DNA of 57,115 nt from Thermodesulfobacteriota bacterium (GCA_034189135.1 JAXHVO010000138.1:1-57115); one strand, 5' to 3'; numbered from the stretch's first letter, positions 12,868-56,530 are shown. Made by a program: numbers and translations. The notes: generated by a model not told the origin, from the letters alone.

Positions 12868-13563
12868 ATGGGCAAGATTGATGATAAATATCTTTTGCCG
12901 ACCGCTATGATCGACAGCGATAGCCCGCTTATTATTGAACATGCTGAAAAAATAATTGATACTGCAGCAAGCCCGGCGGTTGAAAAGGCGGTAAAACTCT
13001 ACTATGCGGTCAGAGACGGGATCTGGTATGATCCCTATTATCCGTTTTACCGTCCCGAGCACTACCGGGCAAGTAATGTGTTAAAAAGCGGAAGGGGGTA
13101 TTGTGTGAGCAAGGCATCCCTTCTCTGTGCTTTGGGAAGAGCGTGCGGAGTTCCGTCACGCATCGGCTTTGCCACCGTGAGAAATCACCTGGCCACCAGG
13201 CAACTGATAGAGTTTTTAGGTACGGATCTGTTTGTCTATCACGGATTCACCGAATTTTATCTGGACGGAACATGGGTTAAAGCCACACCTGCCTTTAATA
13301 TCGAACTCTGCCGAAGGCATAAGGTTGTCCCCCTTGAATTTAACGGCCGGGAGGACTCTATTTTCCAGCCATTCAGCCTGGAGAAAAAACAGTTTATGGA
13401 ATACCTGGAGAATCACGGTAGTTACGCAGATATTCCGCTTGATGATATTTTGTCTGCATGGAAAGGGACCTATGGAGAAGAAAGGGTCAGGAAGTGGATC
13501 GAGGCTTTCGAACAGTCAGGAGGAATATCGCCCCGCGATTTTAGCCGGGAGGATGTGCTTTAA
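12868..13563 (+). CDS. Transglutaminase-like cysteine protease-fold protein
   Basis: A 231-residue protein of the transglutaminase-like (microbial, papain-fold) superfamily. The catalytic Cys is C79 in GRGYCVSKA, following the usual hydrophobic RASNVLKSG. The His is H125 in VYHGFTEFYLDG. The third residue of the triad, normally Asp, falls in KATPAFN (139-144), where Asn may replace it. No signal peptide is present, so it acts in the cytoplasm. GAGGAAAA precedes the ATG. The stop codon at 13561-13563 lies inside the 7-11 bp direct repeat created when element E inserted. Confidence 0.8.
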   Translation: MGKIDDKYLLPTAMIDSDSPLIIEHAEKIIDTAASPAVEKAVKLYYAVRDGIWYDPYYPFYRPEHYRASNVLKSGRGYCVSKASLLCALGRACGVPSRIGFATVRNHLATRQLIEFLGTDLFVYHGFTEFYLDGTWVKATPAFNIELCRRHKVVPLEFNGREDSIFQPFSLEKKQFMEYLENHGSYADIPLDDILSAWKGTYGEERVRKWIEAFEQSGGISPRDFSREDVL

Positions 13564-13564
13564 T

Positions 13565-13908
13565 TGAGGGATCGGGGAGCTTTTCTATCTCTACTCAACT
13601 CGCCCGGGGAAGCGCCCCTTTGGCCGTACAAGCCTTAACAAATGAGTACAGCACTCTGTACACGCCCCCTATCTTTTGCGTTAAATCAATGCAGGCAGCT
13701 ACGATCATTGCCGCCGTGGGAATCTGTTTATGGGGCTGGTTCAAATCCAATCTCAGTCCGCCTAATCGGACCGTACGTCTGTTCCTCGATATTATTGTTA
13801 ATGCTTGTACGGCCAAAAGGGGCGCTTCCCCGGGTGAGCTGATAACAATTATTAAAGCCCAATGGGTTTACAAAAAAGGCCATTAATAAGAAACTCCCCG
13901 ATCCCTCA
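13565..13908. mobile_element. Element E, copy 1: 344-bp hairpin element
   Basis: It begins TGAGGGATCGGGGAG and ends with the exact inverse. Inside, a 46-nt arm (13596-13641, starting CAACTCGCCCGG) pairs with 13795-13841 with few mismatches, around a loop of about 150 nt. The loop contains a smaller hairpin (GTCCG..CGGAC) and the tRNA-T-arm-like word GGTTCAAATCC. The direct repeat CTTTAATTGAG occurs at 13558-13568 and 13909-13919, consistent with a target duplication of at least 7 bp. No coding frame has a ribosome site. A second copy lies at 19507-19851. I do not recognise the family; it could be a MITE, a hairpin-transposed element or a structured RNA. Confidence 0.8.
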
Positions 13909-15076
13909 CTTTAATTGAGTGATAAAGATTTGCCACATGCGGTTTAAGGCGATCTTTAATGACTGTGACTTCCGGGGCTGCTGGATTATATGCATTTGCA
14001 ATGGATAAAGACAGGTCGTATAGCTGTGACTCCGGTAAAGCTGACAGGTAATCTAGGAAAAAATCAGCCTGGGGCGAAGGAATTAAACGACTTTGTGGTT
14101 TTAATGTCAGTGCCTGATAAAACCCCTTAAGGGTTTCTTCAACCGCGCAATCATCAGACCATACAATATCTCCGACTCCGTCTAATCTGTCAAGGCGCAT
14201 CCTGATGGACAGATTTAAAAAAAATACCAGCATACCATCAATGATGAACTTTAAATCTTTGTATTTTCCATCAGTGATATGGTGAGTGTCAAATAATGGC
14301 GCATATTGACGGACAGTAATGAGTTTCAGGTCCATCCCGTCTGGTTTAATTTTTATAACAAAATCTCCTGCGGCATGGTGCCAGGGAAATATTTGATTGA
14401 AGGTCTCCAGGTCGTAATATAAAGTCAGAATCATGGCAGCCCGCCGGTAAAGGGTTCTTGTCTGATTTTTTGAAAGAAAAATGCCGCTGTTTGCAGGGTC
14501 CCATACCCGTATTCTTTTGCCTGAACCAGTCGGTCCAGGCGAGAGGTGAAATTCGTTGTATCCTTCAAACCATTGCCCTAAAAACATACTTACGTTAAGA
14601 TTGTTGTCCAGGCAGATTTCATCTTTGCCGTAAACATCGGGGATGTATGAATGCTGAAATTTGCGGCCCAATTTTCGCAATAGTTCATATTCTCTGGCAA
14701 TACATCTTCTTCCTGTTGCAGAAACAGCCACATTCAATACAAAGGAAAACTTATTTCTTCCCACAATCGTTTCGATCCGTGCAGGATGATAAAATTCTCC
14801 GTGCTTTTCCTGAAAGATATTCACCCTGCTAATATCTGAAAGTTTTAGGGATTGATTGCTGATTTGCGATACAGCGCTTAAGATTATATGACAATCGTTT
14901 GCCGAAAGGAAAGATTGGGCTGCTGTAAAATAATCCCCATGGCAAAAATGAATGCCGGAAGACCCTTTGGGCTGTTTCCGGCTCACAGGTATTGATGATT
15001 TCCAGAGATTGCTGTTTTTTTGAACCTGATTTTTTATGTTGGAGAGGAAATAATTAAATGGCGGCTGGTTCGGCAT
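13883..15076 (-). CDS. Unknown protein, possibly kinase-like; C-terminus altered by element E
   Basis: 397 residues, not recognised. IAREYELLRKLGRKF..YIPDVYG near residues 127-150 and FPWHHAAGDFVIK near 230-242 recall the helix-alphaC region and catalytic loop of aminoglycoside-phosphotransferase/protein-kinase-like folds, but no Walker-type or full HxD motif is obvious, so this is only a suggestion. The last ten residues, KVRDRGVSY and the stop, are encoded by the terminal repeat of element E. Deleting the element in silico gives the ending HSIKAHPPG and a stop inside the convergent transglutaminase gene. Start at the ATG at 15076, 18 bp from MITE C. Confidence 0.6.
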   Translation of the reverse strand: MPNQPPFNYFLSNIKNQVQKNSNLWKSSIPVSRKQPKGSSGIHFCHGDYFTAAQSFLSANDCHIILSAVSQISNQSLKLSDISRVNIFQEKHGEFYHPARIETIVGRNKFSFVLNVAVSATGRRCIAREYELLRKLGRKFQHSYIPDVYGKDEICLDNNLNVSMFLGQWFEGYNEFHLSPGPTGSGKRIRVWDPANSGIFLSKNQTRTLYRRAAMILTLYYDLETFNQIFPWHHAAGDFVIKIKPDGMDLKLITVRQYAPLFDTHHITDGKYKDLKFIIDGMLVFFLNLSIRMRLDRLDGVGDIVWSDDCAVEETLKGFYQALTLKPQSRLIPSPQADFFLDYLSALPESQLYDLSLSIANAYNPAAPEVTVIKDRLKPHVANLYHSIKVRDRGVSY

Positions 15077-15094
15077 GGCATTATTATTTTATTA

Positions 15095-15434
15095 ACTCAA
15101 GTTTTGCACCCCTTAACAACGGTGGAGCCGGAATTGTTAAAGCGCCGATTGATGTTAAGGGTGTGAATCGAGACAGTTATATTATTTTCTTCCAGGGGAT
15201 ATGAATTGAATCAGTTGCAGCGCGTCCGGATATTTGGGATACAGTCTATCCGTTGCTAAACAATATAAAAGGGACGGTCTATCCCAACTATCCGGACACT
15301 GCGAAAAGGGGTAATAGATGACCCACATATCCCCTTACAGAAAAAAATATAACCGTTTCGATTCACATCTGATTTTATATGTTACGTGCCGTCAGGGCAT
15401 TTCTTTCCGCCAAACCGGGGTGCGAAACTTGAGT
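15095..15434. mobile_element. MITE family C, 340 bp (ACTCAAG ends)
   Basis: It begins ACTCAAGTTTTGCACCCC and ends GGGGTGCGAAACTTGAGT: 18-bp inverted repeats with one mismatch. The 5-bp sequence TATTA stands on both sides (15090-15094 and 15435-15439), a clear target duplication. Inside, 15217-15241 pairs with 15280-15302 (GTCCGGATA.TTGGGATA and inverse) to form a second long stem. It lies just upstream of the unknown gene at 13883-15076 and may have replaced or shifted its promoter. One short frame inside it is listed separately. Confidence 0.8.
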
Positions 15435-15440
15435 TATTAA
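15318..15440 (+). CDS. Possible 40-residue ORF inside MITE C
   Basis: ATG at 15318 has GGGG six bases upstream and the frame runs to a TAA that uses the right-hand target duplication. The product starts MTHISPYRKKYNRFDSHLIL and is basic. It may be a chance frame, or the leftover N-terminus of a transposase-type protein. Its end was created by the insertion junction, which argues against a conserved gene. Confidence 0.18.
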   Translation: MTHISPYRKKYNRFDSHLILYVTCRQGISFRQTGVRNLSY

Positions 15441-15569
15441 ATAAACCTGGGTCTTTGGGTCCGATCAGAGACAAAGCGCTAGGCCGAATTGATTGATCCA
15501 GATGACGAGTCATCGGTTGCGAGCGGTTAAAGGGAAAGATCCAGGCAACGTTCTTCGAACTCGCAGCCT

Positions 15570-16196
15570 CTACTTTTTCCTGTACTTTTCGATCTCTTTG
15601 AGTATTTCCGGTGCAACTTCGTAGCCGAGTTCAACTGCTTTGTCGCAGTGCTGCACGGCCATTGCATAATGCTCCTTTTCAAGGTATGCCACCGTAAGAT
15701 TATTATGGGCAACGGCAAAGCCTTCTTCAAGTTTAAGCGCCTTCATATTGGCCTCTATGCTTTCATCCACCATCCCTTTCATCAAATAAGCATTTCCTAA
15801 AGTGGTGTAAGCCTGAAGAAATTTTGGGTTCCATCTGGTCGCCTTTTCAAGAGCGGTAATTGCTTCTTCAATATTTCCCAGCTGAAGCTGTGCAAAGCCT
15901 ATGTTTGCCCAGCCCTCGGAAAATCCGGCCCTGGACTTTACCGCTCGCTTATTATATTCAAGGCAACCCTCCAGGTCTCCCTTTTGCAGACAGATTCCTC
16001 CCAGCTGTACATAAGCCTCGGCAAGATTCGGGCTGCAGTCAAGCGCAGCAAAAAGTTCATTTTGGGCTTCATCGTATTTTTTCAGTCCCAGGAGAGCAAC
16101 AGCAAGGTTATAATGAGATGTTCCGCATTCCGGGTTGCCGGCAAGGGCAGCCCGCTGCATGGCAATATATTCTTCCGCATTTTTTGCTTTAGGCAT
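15570..16196 (-). CDS. TPR repeat protein
   Basis: 208 residues made of about five tetratricopeptide repeats: YNLAVALLGLKKYDEAQNEL, AEAYVQLGGICLQKGDLEGC, SEGWANIGFAQLQLGNIEEA, LQAYTTLGNAYLMKGMVDES and AVAHNNLTVAYLEKEHYAMA. No signal peptide or extra domain is present, so it is probably a cytoplasmic scaffold for protein-protein contacts. AAGGAC precedes the ATG. Divergent from the strongly promoted small gene at 16439, which suggests a shared control region but not a shared function. Confidence 0.85.
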   Translation of the reverse strand: MPKAKNAEEYIAMQRAALAGNPECGTSHYNLAVALLGLKKYDEAQNELFAALDCSPNLAEAYVQLGGICLQKGDLEGCLEYNKRAVKSRAGFSEGWANIGFAQLQLGNIEEAITALEKATRWNPKFLQAYTTLGNAYLMKGMVDESIEANMKALKLEEGFAVAHNNLTVAYLEKEHYAMAVQHCDKAVELGYEVAPEILKEIEKYRKK

Positions 16197-16342
16197 GATT
16201 TTGTCCTTATAAATAATGGTTATTTTTCAAAAGTCTTTGGGAAATTGAATGCTCAGCAGGCTAAGTATGGCAGCAACTGTTGATTGTCAAGAAAAAACGA
16301 ATGACCGTGATTTGGCTTTATAAAAAACGCAACAATAGTTAC

Positions 16343-16371
16343 TTGACAGGGAAAAGTATTGATAATATAAA
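16343..16371 (+). promoter_or_regulatory. Strong sigma-70 promoter for the 110-residue unknown protein
   Basis: TTGACA (16343-16348), a 17-bp spacer and TATAAA (16366-16371): the best promoter match in the window. The start codon follows 68 bp later, behind an extended Shine-Dalgarno sequence. Both point to high expression. Confidence 0.7.
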
Positions 16372-16438
16372 AACCGGATATCAAGGTTAGAGAGAAAAGG
16401 GACTTTTTTATTTGAAATCTGAAAAGGAGGAGGTTCTC

Positions 16439-16771
16439 ATGGCGGATTATTACATTAATGTTTTTTTGGATGATGCAAAACTCAAGCAGATTGAAGATGC
16501 CGGTTTGGCCGATCAGGTTACCGAAATAGACGGTAAAAAGGCTATTCAGGTGGGTATGACAAAAAAGGACAAAAAGAAACTTCTTAAGGGTTTTGATGGT
16601 TGTACCTTCGACGATTCGAATACATGTATCCTCCCGGAAGATGGTGAGAATACGCTTATGTCAGTCATATCCGAAGTTAAGTCCCTTGATTGTATGAAGT
16701 TTGCAATCACCAAGCTTTATAATCCACTTGCAGGAAGGGGTATATCCGGAAGAGGTACCGGCGGGCGTTAG
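16439..16771 (+). CDS. Small soluble protein of unknown function, apparently highly expressed
   Basis: 110 residues, not recognised. The N-terminal part is charged (MADYYINVFLDDAKLKQIED), followed by EIDGKKAIQVGMTKKDKKKL, two cysteines in GFDGCTFDDSNTCILPED, another in SLDCMKF and a glycine/arginine tail GRGISGRGTGGR. The tail resembles RGG-type nucleic-acid- or surface-binding tails. The ATG at 16439 is fixed by AAGGAGGAGG just upstream; an in-frame TTG nine codons earlier is not needed. With its consensus promoter this gene appears built for abundant product. It stands alone, so context gives no function. Confidence 0.65.
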   Translation: MADYYINVFLDDAKLKQIEDAGLADQVTEIDGKKAIQVGMTKKDKKKLLKGFDGCTFDDSNTCILPEDGENTLMSVISEVKSLDCMKFAITKLYNPLAGRGISGRGTGGR

Positions 16772-16788
16772 TATTGCTATTGGGTTTA

Positions 16789-16981
16789 GGGCCTGGAAAT
16801 AAACCACTGATTGTTTTTGCAATGTTGCTTCGGACCATATTTGGTGGATCCTCTATGGCAAAATCCTCGACATAGGTTGACCTTTTCGGTTTTGCTCAAT
16901 CGGATTGACCAGGTAAACCCGGACTTCGAATCTGGGTTGAATCGGTGTGCCAATTCCAATGAGTGGTTGATTTCCAGACCC
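16789..16981. repeat. Inverted-repeat element, 193 bp (GGGCCTGG ends), MITE-like
   Basis: 16789-16813 (GGGCCTGGAAATAAACCACT and on) and 16957-16981 are 25-nt inverted repeats with three mismatches. No clear target duplication and no second copy in the window. It occupies most of the gap between the small unknown gene and dapA. The rest of the gap (16982-17208) shows nothing else. Confidence 0.5.
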
Positions 16982-17208
16982 ATTGCGCCCCCATTGAGAC
17001 TCAGGGAAAACGTTTCTTTTAATAAAAAAGGGGGCATTTTTTCCCAGGCTCATGTATGCTGCATTCCAACTTTCTTCCTTCATCCCCTGTTTGCAGGATC
17101 CTAAGAATATTTTCGAATCCAGCGGTTATTAAAGCTTGCTTTTCAGACTGTTCCAAGATTATTTTAAAAAACCATTTATATTTATTGAGAAGTTAAAAGG
17201 GAGGGCAC

Positions 17209-18243
17209 ATGAAAACAGGATGTTACACAGCACTCGTTACTCCGTTTAAAGGAGATGCAGTCGATGAGGAAGGACTCAACATGCTGATAGATTTTCAGAT
17301 AGAAAACGGCATAACCGGTATTCTGGCTGTCGGCACTACCGGAGAAAGCCCTGTTTTATCATGGGAAGAACATAATAAAGTGATTGAGGTGGTGGCAAGC
17401 AAAACAAAAAACAAATGCCTGTGTATTGCGGGCACCGGAAGCAATAACACCAAGGAAGCCATTGCGGCCACCGAACACGCGGTCAAATCAGGTGCAGATG
17501 CAGCCTTGCTGGTTGATCCGTACTATAATGGACCAAGCTCCCTTGAAATCCGCAAAGAATATGTCGGCCCGGTGGCAAAAGCCTTTCCTGATGTGGAGGT
17601 GATTCCCTATGTCATTCCCGGAAGGACAGGTGCGCAACTTTTACCGGAAGATCTTGCCCTGTTGAATAAAGAATTTCCAAACGTAAGCACGGTAAAAGAA
17701 GCCACCGGCAATATACAGAACATGAAGCATACCCGAGAATGTTGTGGGCCGAATTTTACTATTTTATCCGGCGATGACGGTATGACTTATGAAATGATGA
17801 CCAATCAACAGATTGCTGCAGCCGGTGTCATATCTGTAGCTTCAAATGTGACTCCAGGGGCCATTACGCGTATGGTTCAGCTCCTTGAGGATGGCCGTGC
17901 GGATGAAGCTGAAAACCTGCTGTCCGGGCTCAAACCTCTTTTTGGCCTCGTTACTGTGAGTACCATGGAAAGCACACCATATGGCGAAGCGGTTTGCCGG
18001 GCCAGAAATCCTCTTGCAATAAAAACATTGATGTCTATTCTCGGTATGCCCTCAGGAGGATGCAGGCAACCCTTGGGGAAAATGACTAAAAAAGGATTAA
18101 ACACCGTGATAGATGCTGCGAACAAAGTACAAAACAGCAATCCTGAAATATTCAAACCGCTGGCTGACTTTTTCGGTGTTGATGTGGAGAATCGTTTAAA
18201 TGACCCATCTGTTCTGCAAGGGCTGTATTACGAGGAATATTAA
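17209..18243 (+). CDS. dapA: Dihydrodipicolinate synthase family protein (DapA/NAL), C-terminally extended
   Basis: A class I (Schiff-base) aldolase of the DapA/N-acetylneuraminate-lyase family, 344 residues against about 290 for typical DapA. The signature GTTGES is at 42-47, the catalytic Tyr is Y134 in YVIPGRTG and the Schiff-base lysine is K163 in TVKEATG. The PGRT motif supports the DapA branch (pyruvate plus aspartate semialdehyde, lysine and diaminopimelate synthesis). The extra 50 residues at the C-terminus (FKPLADFFGVDVENRL and on) are not part of the core barrel. GGGAGG precedes the ATG. No other lysine genes are adjacent, so the pathway assignment rests on motifs. Confidence 0.8.
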   Translation: MKTGCYTALVTPFKGDAVDEEGLNMLIDFQIENGITGILAVGTTGESPVLSWEEHNKVIEVVASKTKNKCLCIAGTGSNNTKEAIAATEHAVKSGADAALLVDPYYNGPSSLEIRKEYVGPVAKAFPDVEVIPYVIPGRTGAQLLPEDLALLNKEFPNVSTVKEATGNIQNMKHTRECCGPNFTILSGDDGMTYEMMTNQQIAAAGVISVASNVTPGAITRMVQLLEDGRADEAENLLSGLKPLFGLVTVSTMESTPYGEAVCRARNPLAIKTLMSILGMPSGGCRQPLGKMTKKGLNTVIDAANKVQNSNPEIFKPLADFFGVDVENRLNDPSVLQGLYYEEY

Positions 18244-18246
18244 CCG

Positions 18247-18350
18247 GGATACGAGTTGCAGGTTGCGAGTTTCGGGGTACGGGTTATAAAAAAGGAATAT
18301 TTCCGATTAAGCACCCGCAACTCGATACACATACCTCGCAACCTGATTAG
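18247..18350. repeat. Palindromic repeat family D, short copy 1
   Basis: Core words shared with the other copies: CGGGTTATAAAAAAGGA, TATTTCCGATTA and CAACTCG-type palindromic units on both sides, giving an imperfect hairpin. It fills the dapA-galT gap. Read as protein it gives a false N-terminal extension of galT. Other copies: 24652-24857, 43199-43271 and 55619-55830. Confidence 0.7.
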
Positions 18351-18366
18351 AACATATCAAACACCC

Positions 18367-19431
18367 ATGCCCGAAGATCATTTTGAAAGCCTTAATTTTG
18401 ACAAGGAATCTGTGTCAGCCAGGTTCATCGCGCCTTCCGGAGAGGTGGTTGAAAAATTAATTGAGATTCGCACCAATCCCATTACCCGGCGTACATGTCG
18501 AATTGCATACAGCCGAATTGATGAAAAGGAGGCGGGTACGGATAGGCTTCCCCAGCCGCCACCTGACGCGAATAACACTTCCGAATGCCCGTTTTGCAGA
18601 CCCGGAGTGAACTCGAAAACCCCGCAGCTTTTGCCTGAAATCTCACCCGAACGTCGCCTGGTGCATGATGAATCAATCCTGTTCCCCAACCTGTTTCCCT
18701 ATGGGAGCTATTCAGCGGTGAGTCTTTTTGACAACCAGCATTTCGTAGAGATAGGCCAGGCCTCTTTGTCATCGTATACCGGTAGTTTTCTAAACTGCAG
18801 CAAATATTTCGATCGTGTCCTGTCCAACGATCCCGATGCGATCTACATGGCAATCACCCAGAACCACCTTCCTTCAGCCGGTGGTTCGCTGTTGCATCCC
18901 CACCTGCAGATAAACGCAGACAGGCTTGCTCCAAACCACCACCGCTTTATAGGAAAAAGAGCCCTGAGCTATTATAATCAAACAGGGGCATGCCTTTTTT
19001 CCGATTACTTGGCACATGAAAAAAAAGATGGCAGCCGGTATATAGGAAATACCGGTGCATGGCAGTGGGTGGCTTCCTTTGCCCCGGAAGGATTTTTTGA
19101 AATCTGGGGAATATTTCCCCAAAAAACATCTTTTCGCCAACTGGCTGATTCAGATTGGCAAGACCTGGCAAAAGGAGTTTTAAACACCCAGAGGTTTTAC
19201 CGAAGTTTTTGCAGGAATGGATACAACTTAGGAGTTTTGTTTATAGAAGATGAAAAGATACCCCTCGAGCTGCGCATGGTGATCCTTGCGCGCTCCAATT
19301 ACGCACCGTGGGTTAGAAATGACCACACAGGCTTTGAAGTCATGCTGGGAGATATGACCACATTCACTGCACCCGAGGAGACCGCGGAAAAGGCTAGACC
19401 TTTTTGGAGAAGAGAACAGCCGATTCCCTGA
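18367..19431 (+). CDS. galT: Galactose-1-phosphate uridylyltransferase-like protein
   Basis: 354 residues of the HIT-superfamily GalT group, which transfers UMP between UDP-glucose and galactose-1-phosphate in the Leloir pathway. A zinc site is suggested by CPFC (C74, C77). The active-site motif reads HPHLQ (H177-Q181) where Escherichia coli GalT has HPHGQ. PNLFPYGSYSAVSLF (107-121) is the substrate-binding strand. Gly to Leu inside the HPH motif may change the acceptor, so nucleotidyltransferase activity on another sugar phosphate is possible. I place the start at the ATG at 18367 because the upstream open frame is repeat D. Confidence 0.75.
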   Translation: MPEDHFESLNFDKESVSARFIAPSGEVVEKLIEIRTNPITRRTCRIAYSRIDEKEAGTDRLPQPPPDANNTSECPFCRPGVNSKTPQLLPEISPERRLVHDESILFPNLFPYGSYSAVSLFDNQHFVEIGQASLSSYTGSFLNCSKYFDRVLSNDPDAIYMAITQNHLPSAGGSLLHPHLQINADRLAPNHHRFIGKRALSYYNQTGACLFSDYLAHEKKDGSRYIGNTGAWQWVASFAPEGFFEIWGIFPQKTSFRQLADSDWQDLAKGVLNTQRFYRSFCRNGYNLGVLFIEDEKIPLELRMVILARSNYAPWVRNDHTGFEVMLGDMTTFTAPEETAEKARPFWRREQPIP

Positions 19432-19506
19432 TTCACCCAGAGAGGGTCGGAACCCGAAGCCTTTAAACCCGAGACCGGATAGCCCATTATTAAGTTTTAT
19501 TTATGA

Positions 19507-19851
19507 TGAGAGGTTGGGGAGTTTTTCAATCTCTACTCAGTTCGTCCGGTGGAGCGCCCATTTGCCCGTATCAGCCTTAACAAATAAGTCCGGCACTCTG
19601 TACACGCCCCCTATCTTCTCAGTTAAATCCATACAGGCAGAGACGACAAACGTTGCCGTGGGGTTCTGTCCCTTGGGGCTGGTTCAAATCTAATCTCAGT
19701 CCGCCGCAGGCGGACCGAACGCCGGTTTCTCGAAATGATTGTTAAGGCTGATACGGGCAAATGGGCGCTCCACCGGACGAACCGCTAACAATCGTTATAG
19801 CTCAAACGGTTCATAAAAAAGGCCATTGATAGGAAACTCCCCGACCCCTCA
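19507..19851. mobile_element. Element E, copy 2: 345-bp hairpin element
   Basis: It begins TGAGAGGTTGGGGAG and ends CTCCCCGACCCCTCA. The 46-nt arms 19538-19583 and 19739-19784 pair with only one mismatch. Compared with copy 1, eight arm positions have changed in both arms together, so pairing is preserved although the sequence has drifted. The loop keeps CTCTGTACACGCCCCCTATC, GGGGCTGGTTCAAATC and a GTCCGCC-gca-GGCGGAC hairpin. No clear target duplication. Its right end supplies the TGA stop codon of the minus-strand hydrolase gene. Confidence 0.8.
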
Positions 19852-20697
19852 CTTAAGATATAATAGTTTGGTGCATTTATCCTGGGTGGCCACATCGAGC
19901 CTGGTTTTACAGTTGTTTAATGCACTTCCCACCGTGCTTAAGGCTTTTTCAGGGGTATTATTGATTTCACTCAGGTGGGCCAGGACAACATGACGGAGGC
20001 GGTCATGGAGAAGCTCTTTGAGAAGGGTTGCCGAGTCATGGTTGGAAAGGTGTCCGGTTCTGCTCTTGATGCGCTGTTTCAAAGGCCAGGGATAGGGGCC
20101 GTTTATCAGCATGTCCGGGTCATGGTTGGCCTCAAGGATTAGCAGGGTGCATTCTTTTAAATGTTGTTTAACCATTAAAGTTGAAACACCCAGGTCTGTT
20201 GCAATCCCTATTTTTGTTTCGTTTTTTTCTACGGTAAAACCCGCCGGGTCTATGGCGTCATGAGATATGGAAAAAGGATGTAGAAACAAATGGTTGATAT
20301 TAAAGGCCGTGCCACACTCAAAATATCTCAGATCAGCGATACTTCCCAGTTGGGGTGAGGCTTTTTTTGTTTTATGACTGATATACACCGGTATATTAAA
20401 ACGGCGGGAAAGAACCCCCACGCCCTGAATATGGTCTGAATGCTCGTGGGATACAATAATGGCGTTCAGATTTTCCGGGCAAAGACCTTTTGTATCCAAC
20501 CTGCGCTGGATCTCAATACCTGACAAGCCTGCGTCAATCAGTATTGAAGTTGAACCATCGGTAACATAGGTGGCATTTCCCTTGCTTCCGCTTGCAAGCA
20601 TGCAAACCGAAAGCGTGAAATCCGGACACGGCGGTGAGAGTTCTGGTGCATCCTTGTCAGAAGTCATTGGATACTCTGGCGGCTTTCGTTCATGCAA
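19849..20697 (-). CDS. Metallo-beta-lactamase fold hydrolase, WalJ/YycJ-like
   Basis: 282 residues. The metal-binding motif SHEHSDH (H84, H86, D88, H89) follows the typical LASGSKGNATYV opening and LIDAGLSG strand of the WalJ/YycJ group, a likely 5'-exonuclease acting in DNA mismatch repair or cell-wall coordination in other bacteria. A later His in SHDAID and the C-terminal HLS motif complete the site. The ATG at 20697 has no good ribosome site and the ATG at 20664 is possible. The last codons TATCTTAAG run into TGA contributed by element E, so the original C-terminus may have been longer. Confidence 0.82.
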   Translation of the reverse strand: MHERKPPEYPMTSDKDAPELSPPCPDFTLSVCMLASGSKGNATYVTDGSTSILIDAGLSGIEIQRRLDTKGLCPENLNAIIVSHEHSDHIQGVGVLSRRFNIPVYISHKTKKASPQLGSIADLRYFECGTAFNINHLFLHPFSISHDAIDPAGFTVEKNETKIGIATDLGVSTLMVKQHLKECTLLILEANHDPDMLINGPYPWPLKQRIKSRTGHLSNHDSATLLKELLHDRLRHVVLAHLSEINNTPEKALSTVGSALNNCKTRLDVATQDKCTKLLYLK

Positions 20698-56378: not shown

Positions 56379-56530
56379 GAGACCTTTGAAAAATGGTGAT
56401 TTTTATTCGAGTTCAAGGAAGACGATCCGCCTAAGGCGGATTAACCACAGGAATAAATGGAATATTTCGAGGATTAAAATTTAAGTCTGACGCAGAAATC
56501 GGATAAAAAGTGCCGTTTTGCAAAGGTCTC
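56379..56530. mobile_element. MITE family A, copy 2
   Basis: 152 bp, the reverse orientation of copy 1. It begins GAGACCTTTGAAAAATGG and ends CGTTTTGCAAAGGTCTC. AAAAA flanks it on both sides (56374-56378 and 56531-56535), again a 5-bp duplication. A CCGCCTAAGGCGG palindrome inside replaces a different stretch of copy 1. Confidence 0.8.

Follow-up and report, generated by a model that had tools for sequence, protein, structure and literature searches.

The two hairpin elements found in the window, the 57,115-nucleotide stretch of a Thermodesulfobacteriota bacterium genome analysed here (GCA_034189135.1, JAXHVO010000138.1:1-57115), are most likely non-autonomous transposons of the MITE type that belong to a new family. 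The overall reading proposed, which is held with good confidence, is that the elements are moved by a transposase, that their two long arms are matched to each other by copying of DNA while the core between them is sometimes inverted, and that this core is itself constrained and probably forms a structured RNA.

Both elements lie where the initial annotation had placed them (13565-13909 and 19507-19851), and its comparison of the left arms (13596-13641 and 19538-19583) was reproduced exactly: nine differences separate them, and at eight of the nine the matching base is present in the right arm (13795-13841 and 19739-19782). The ninth, at position 13598, is a mismatch within element 1; the arms of element 2 pair at 44 of 44 positions. 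Folded as single-stranded DNA, the two elements have z scores of -11.2 and -13.9 relative to dinucleotide shuffles (0 of 100 shuffles reached these values). Their parts are as follows.

13558 to 13565, no strand: left target-site duplication CTTTAATT of element 1, assigned from the sequence and the 8-bp rule from 52 copies
13566 to 13908, plus strand: element 1, a MITE with its core in orientation S (short end, forward core, long end)
13566 to 13595, plus strand: short end of element 1, with terminal repeat GAGGGATCGGGGAG
13596 to 13641, plus strand: left arm of element 1
13642 to 13794, plus strand: conserved core of element 1
13694 to 13698: strand GGCAG of helix P1, in the core of element 1
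13795 to 13841, plus strand: right arm of element 1
13842 to 13908, plus strand: long end of element 1, with terminal repeat
13909 to 13916, no strand: right target-site duplication CTTTAATT of element 1
19508 to 19850, plus strand: element 2, a MITE with its core in orientation S
19508 to 19537, plus strand: short end of element 2
19540 to 19583, plus strand: left arm of element 2, paired at 44 of 44 positions with its right counterpart
19584 to 19738, plus strand: conserved core of element 2
19700 to 19714: palindrome TCCGCCGCAGGCGGA in the core of element 2
19739 to 19782, plus strand: right arm of element 2
19783 to 19850, plus strand: long end of element 2, with terminal repeat

In element 1, a GTCCG..CGGAC hairpin stands in place of the CTGCC partner of P1, and the target duplication of element 2 is no longer recognisable. 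The neighbours in the window are a transglutaminase-like gene and a metallo-beta-lactamase-fold gene. Two minus-strand open reading frames (13883-15076 and 19849-20697) terminate inside or at the MITE ends, with stop codons that come from MITE sequence; the metallo-beta-lactamase-fold gene takes its stop codon from the end of element 2.

At approximately 340 bp, the elements fall inside the MITE range of 50-500 bp, and the inverted terminal repeat GAGGGGTCGGGGAGTTT is present at both ends. Alignment of 71 distinct core-bearing copies from four genomes gave a common layout: a core of about 150 nt lies between two arms of about 44 bp, with a short end (about 35 bp) outside one arm and a long end (about 70 bp) outside the other. 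Perfect 8-bp target duplications flank 19 of the 52 copies with clear ends, versus 15 of 2,000 mismatched pairings, and follow the AT-rich consensus A-N-T-T-A-N-T-T. A first search of this genome (G000) scored 40 places, and a wider model of the core matched 95 times in it, 69 times in G203, and 33 times in G126. The core is non-coding, since some copies have stop codons in all frames and three-base periodicity is absent, and none of the ~340-bp elements holds a transposase-sized open reading frame. The terminal repeats, target duplications, copy number, and non-coding core therefore identify the element as a MITE, and the transposition that the initial annotation had offered as one reading of the hairpin is borne out by the terminal repeats, the 8-bp duplications, and the many copies.

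None of the genomes examined had a transposase between matching ends. Among end pairs up to 6 kb apart at 80 named loci, the longest span was 530 bp and none enclosed a transposase, and a search with the ends from G517 returned other short elements only, with no autonomous parent. Because no transposase was found, the case for transposition rests on the ends, the copy number, and the duplications, and a transposase presumably acts on the GAGGGGTCGGGGAGTTT ends. A 4-kb parent candidate (L205) was discarded when its open reading frames were seen to resemble ribosomal-protein genes. The long end was also considered as a transposase C-terminus and rejected (a single reading frame, not kept in other families), as was an integron attC site, since the elements are isolated insertions, scattered among host genes and marked by target duplications, and not cassette arrays. 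Plasmid and phage collections gave no match, and a search of viral contigs for the end pattern found none. In Rfam 15, the window elements had no match at gathering score, nor did the elements of 14 loci at E values up to 5; together with the literature searched, this agrees with the earlier statement that no described family has these features.

Within a copy the two arms are 96-97% identical (71 copies), versus approximately 79% between copies (G000). Their mismatches comprise 36 of G-U type, 28 of A-C type, and 49 transversions, and the excess of G-U over A-C is not significant (p = 0.38). Blocks have been inserted or replaced in both arms: L050 carries an 8-nt block CAGCCCCC in each, and in L289 the outer part of the arm is unlike that of its siblings, yet 71 of 74 positions are matched. 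Among the copies with recognisable duplications, arm mismatch is 4.4% versus a target-duplication mismatch of 5.4%, the latter value being biased low by the selection of recognisable duplications. The similarity of the two rates indicates that the arms were matched at insertion and have been drifting since, which places homogenisation in the active lineage or the transposition cycle, for which a replicative route would fit. In every family the arms are 36-74 bp long, and their sequence differs between families. L077 (G002 C119) is a derivative without the core, in which the arms pair perfectly over about 27 bp and leave a tiny loop. MITEs of 275-278 bp (L150, L151, L158, L172, L182, and others) have the same ends and imperfect arms, which, in contrast to the homogenised arms, look separately conserved between species.

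In about half of the copies, the core is inverted relative to the ends. The counts of orientation S versus I are 24 versus 25 in G000, 6 versus 10 in G001, and 1 versus 4 in G026, and the tree needs 18 changes of orientation, nine of which are forced by well-supported branches. For instance, L049 and L091, and similarly L042 and L065, have near-identical cores in opposite orientation. Family f30, with unrelated ends, has 10 copies in each orientation, and family f4 has both, as judged by eye. No single site carrying both orientations was seen, and the comparison of G000 with G001 gave no usable orthologous insertion sites. The copies are mostly intergenic, with convergent flanking gene pairs outnumbering divergent ones (23 versus 6, p = 0.002), and show no preferred orientation relative to neighbouring tandem genes (13 co-directional and 17 opposed, by hand count). 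Inversion on a smaller scale is seen in L110 (G152), where a short inner segment of the core (CAGAGACGG..CTGCCG) has been turned around.

In published work, template switching at inverted repeats both homogenised the arms and inverted the spacer (PMC8604942), and the process has been proposed or reported to maintain the stems of hairpins, including RNA hairpins (PMC8794818). Since the two outcomes found together are this published signature, the co-variation of the arms is not evidence for an RNA fold. The co-variation itself is real, and is best explained by DNA copying between the arms and not by RNA selection; copying from arm to arm, which the initial annotation had named as the competing explanation, is thus the correct one for the arms.

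The initial annotation raised the idea of an RNA on the basis of the arms; there it is not supported, but part of it survives for the core. Of 389 genomes of the order, 15, drawn from several families, contained matches to a covariance model of the core, and the wider model added two more genomes of the phylum; wherever the flanks were read, the core was flanked by long matched arms. A helix of five base pairs, GGCAG/CTGCC, occurs in the compensatory forms GGCGG/CCGCC, GGCAA/TTGCC, GGCGC/GCGCC, and GGCAC/GTGCC, which represent a modest number of events. In the MAFFT alignment A4, the column pair 53-131 of this helix has the top score among consistently complementary pairs, although several non-complementary pairs outscore it, as shared descent would produce, and support for the whole proposed structure is modest. 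In alignment A5, which was fitted to the proposed structure and leans towards it, six pairs change on both sides versus 2.9 in shuffles, and the GGCAG/CTGCC helix is paired in 98.9% of cells. Variation in a neighbouring core helix is mostly of the G-U kind, which suggests an RNA from the core-forward strand. A GCCCCC/GGGGC pairing in the core was dropped as evidence, being nearly invariant and hence uninformative. The core is under a constraint of its own, and its forward strand probably forms a structured RNA; the case for this RNA rests mainly on the one helix of five base pairs, and the core may be transcribed and have a function.

That helix is disrupted by a hairpin of the TCCGCC..GGCGGA type in about half of this genome's copies, including both in the window, and the disrupted copies have lost one of its strands. 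The loop hairpin GTCCG(CC)..(GG)CGGAC, described earlier as kept and re-paired between the two elements, is indeed present, but it is a derived replacement, with AGCGAGATAGCT in its place in about half of the genome's copies. The T-arm-like word GGTTCAAATC is not kept outside the genus, where GGTTCAATGG and GTCCAGGTCT are found, and the resemblance to a tRNA T-arm is probably a coincidence. As separate observations, the palindrome TCCGCC(N3)GGCGGA occurs twice in the window (19700-19714 and 56426-56440) versus 0.01 expected by chance, and it takes the place of the AGCGAGATAGCT hairpin in about half of the cores; another MITE (L221) also has it inserted in an arm. In G517, copies L292-L298 may have a second, diverged type of core within the ends typical of that genome, and GGCGG/CCGCC-like segments occur in some of them.

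The same core lies between differing outer ends: GAGGGGTCGGGGAG in families f1, f8, f25, and f28; TTATTACTCCGGCAA in f30; GAGAGCTTTGCATAACATC in f4, where two copies (L108 and L162) have a 5-bp duplication; GTAACTTCTCAA in G517; and another kind in G421. Conversely, GAGGGG ends with 8-bp duplications surround other hairpin interiors, in elements 121-180 and 275-278 bp long, in records from Desulfobacterales and Omnitrophota. The core is therefore a module without fixed ends, and is found with at least three unrelated kinds of end. It can be entertained, tentatively, that the unit of arms, core, and arms represents a mobile structured RNA of a new class, the bacterial equivalent of a SINE, that would ride unrelated DNA transposon backbones through the phylum, with a core acting in trans or on the host.

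In the mechanism proposed, a transposase would mobilise the element through its GAGGGGTCGGGGAGTTT ends and duplicate 8 bp of AT-rich target. During replication or transposition, the two arms would pair or recombine at the DNA level and one would be copied onto the other, such that they stay identical while their sequence changes; in some of these events the core would be inverted. Homogenisation would occur in the active lineage, and the arms of fixed copies would drift about as fast as the target duplication. Template switching may be the exact route, and RecA recombination or gene conversion could equally fit.

If the arms were instead matched by selection for a working hairpin, either RNA or extruded DNA that is recognised, for example, by the transposase, then compensatory mutations would account for the eight paired changes out of nine in the window and for the retention of 36-74 bp arms in every family despite sequence change. 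However, the mismatches have no wobble excess, blocks have been exchanged in both arms together, the arms of fixed copies diverge about like target duplications, and in 275-bp MITEs that share the ends the arms remain conspicuously imperfect. Additionally, recurrent inversion of the spacer is expected from recombination and not from selection. The selected fold that the initial annotation had read from the arm co-variation is thus considered unlikely. Inversion could also reflect a phase-variable switch, in which a dedicated site-specific recombinase uses the arms as its sites, and both orientations are indeed common in the well-sampled genomes. Yet the arm sequence varies between families and widely between copies, unlike recombinase sites, and orientation relative to tandem genes is about even (13 versus 17), which makes such a switch very improbable.

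A further alternative is that arms and core are an independent mobile module that has inserted, either way round, into several unrelated MITE backbones. The same arms-core-arms unit between GAGGGGTCGGGGAG, TTATTACTCCGGCAA, and GAGAGCTTTGCATAACATC ends and two further kinds would be explained in this way, as would GAGGGG ends around unrelated hairpin interiors; but the junctions within a family are the same for either orientation, which inversion accounts for in fewer events, neither an empty backbone nor a free arms-core unit was found, and the ends may have diverged or been swapped by recombination. An independent module is therefore regarded as doubtful. Most of the genomes are fragmented metagenome assemblies, in which flipped cores could be errors made at repeats. 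Arms of ~44 bp, however, are shorter than the usual assembly words and reads, and the flipped copies differ by several percent, sit inside contigs, have intact target duplications in many cases, and occur in genomes of several families, so the probability of assembly error is close to negligible.

Among known systems, the Chunjie (Geobacter) and QMITE (Coxiella) MITEs (PMC10969869) are similar to the MITEs described here in size, terminal repeats, high copy number, strong hairpin, target duplications (7-9 bp in QMITE2), and want of a transposase. Unlike these, the present elements have long internal arms homogenised per copy, a spacer in both orientations, and a core that is conserved across families and common to unrelated ends, with no parent element identified. 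Template switching (PMC8604942, PMC8794818), including quasipalindrome mutation in E. coli (PMC7202029), has the same paired outcomes of homogenisation and inversion, but the inverted spacers in PMC8604942 are of a few bp in yeast genes, whereas here the spacer measures about 150 nt, belongs to dispersed mobile elements, and has switched many times. Structured RNAs of Rfam 15 likewise have a conserved core and a covarying helix, although no family matches. REP palindromes (PMC3733652) are also multi-copy intergenic hairpins, of 20-40 bp, in contrast to ~340 bp with terminal repeats and 8-bp duplications.

The arms are a clear example from nature of a long stem whose near-perfect co-variation is the product of DNA copying and not of RNA selection. 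This is a warning for covariation-based RNA discovery, for which spacer inversion is a telltale control. The core, which probably forms an RNA, is the more interesting part of the element: it is undescribed, conserved across families, and common to unrelated transposon ends, and its function is now testable. As a minor observation, L231, L232, and the Omnitrophota loci L178, L179, and L181 have GAGGGGTCGGGGAGTTTTTC ends and 8-bp duplications around short hairpins (CGTCATTCCCGCGAAGGCGGGAATCC and CATCCTGAGC..GAAGGATC), which suggests that genomic hairpins of this kind can be MITE interiors.
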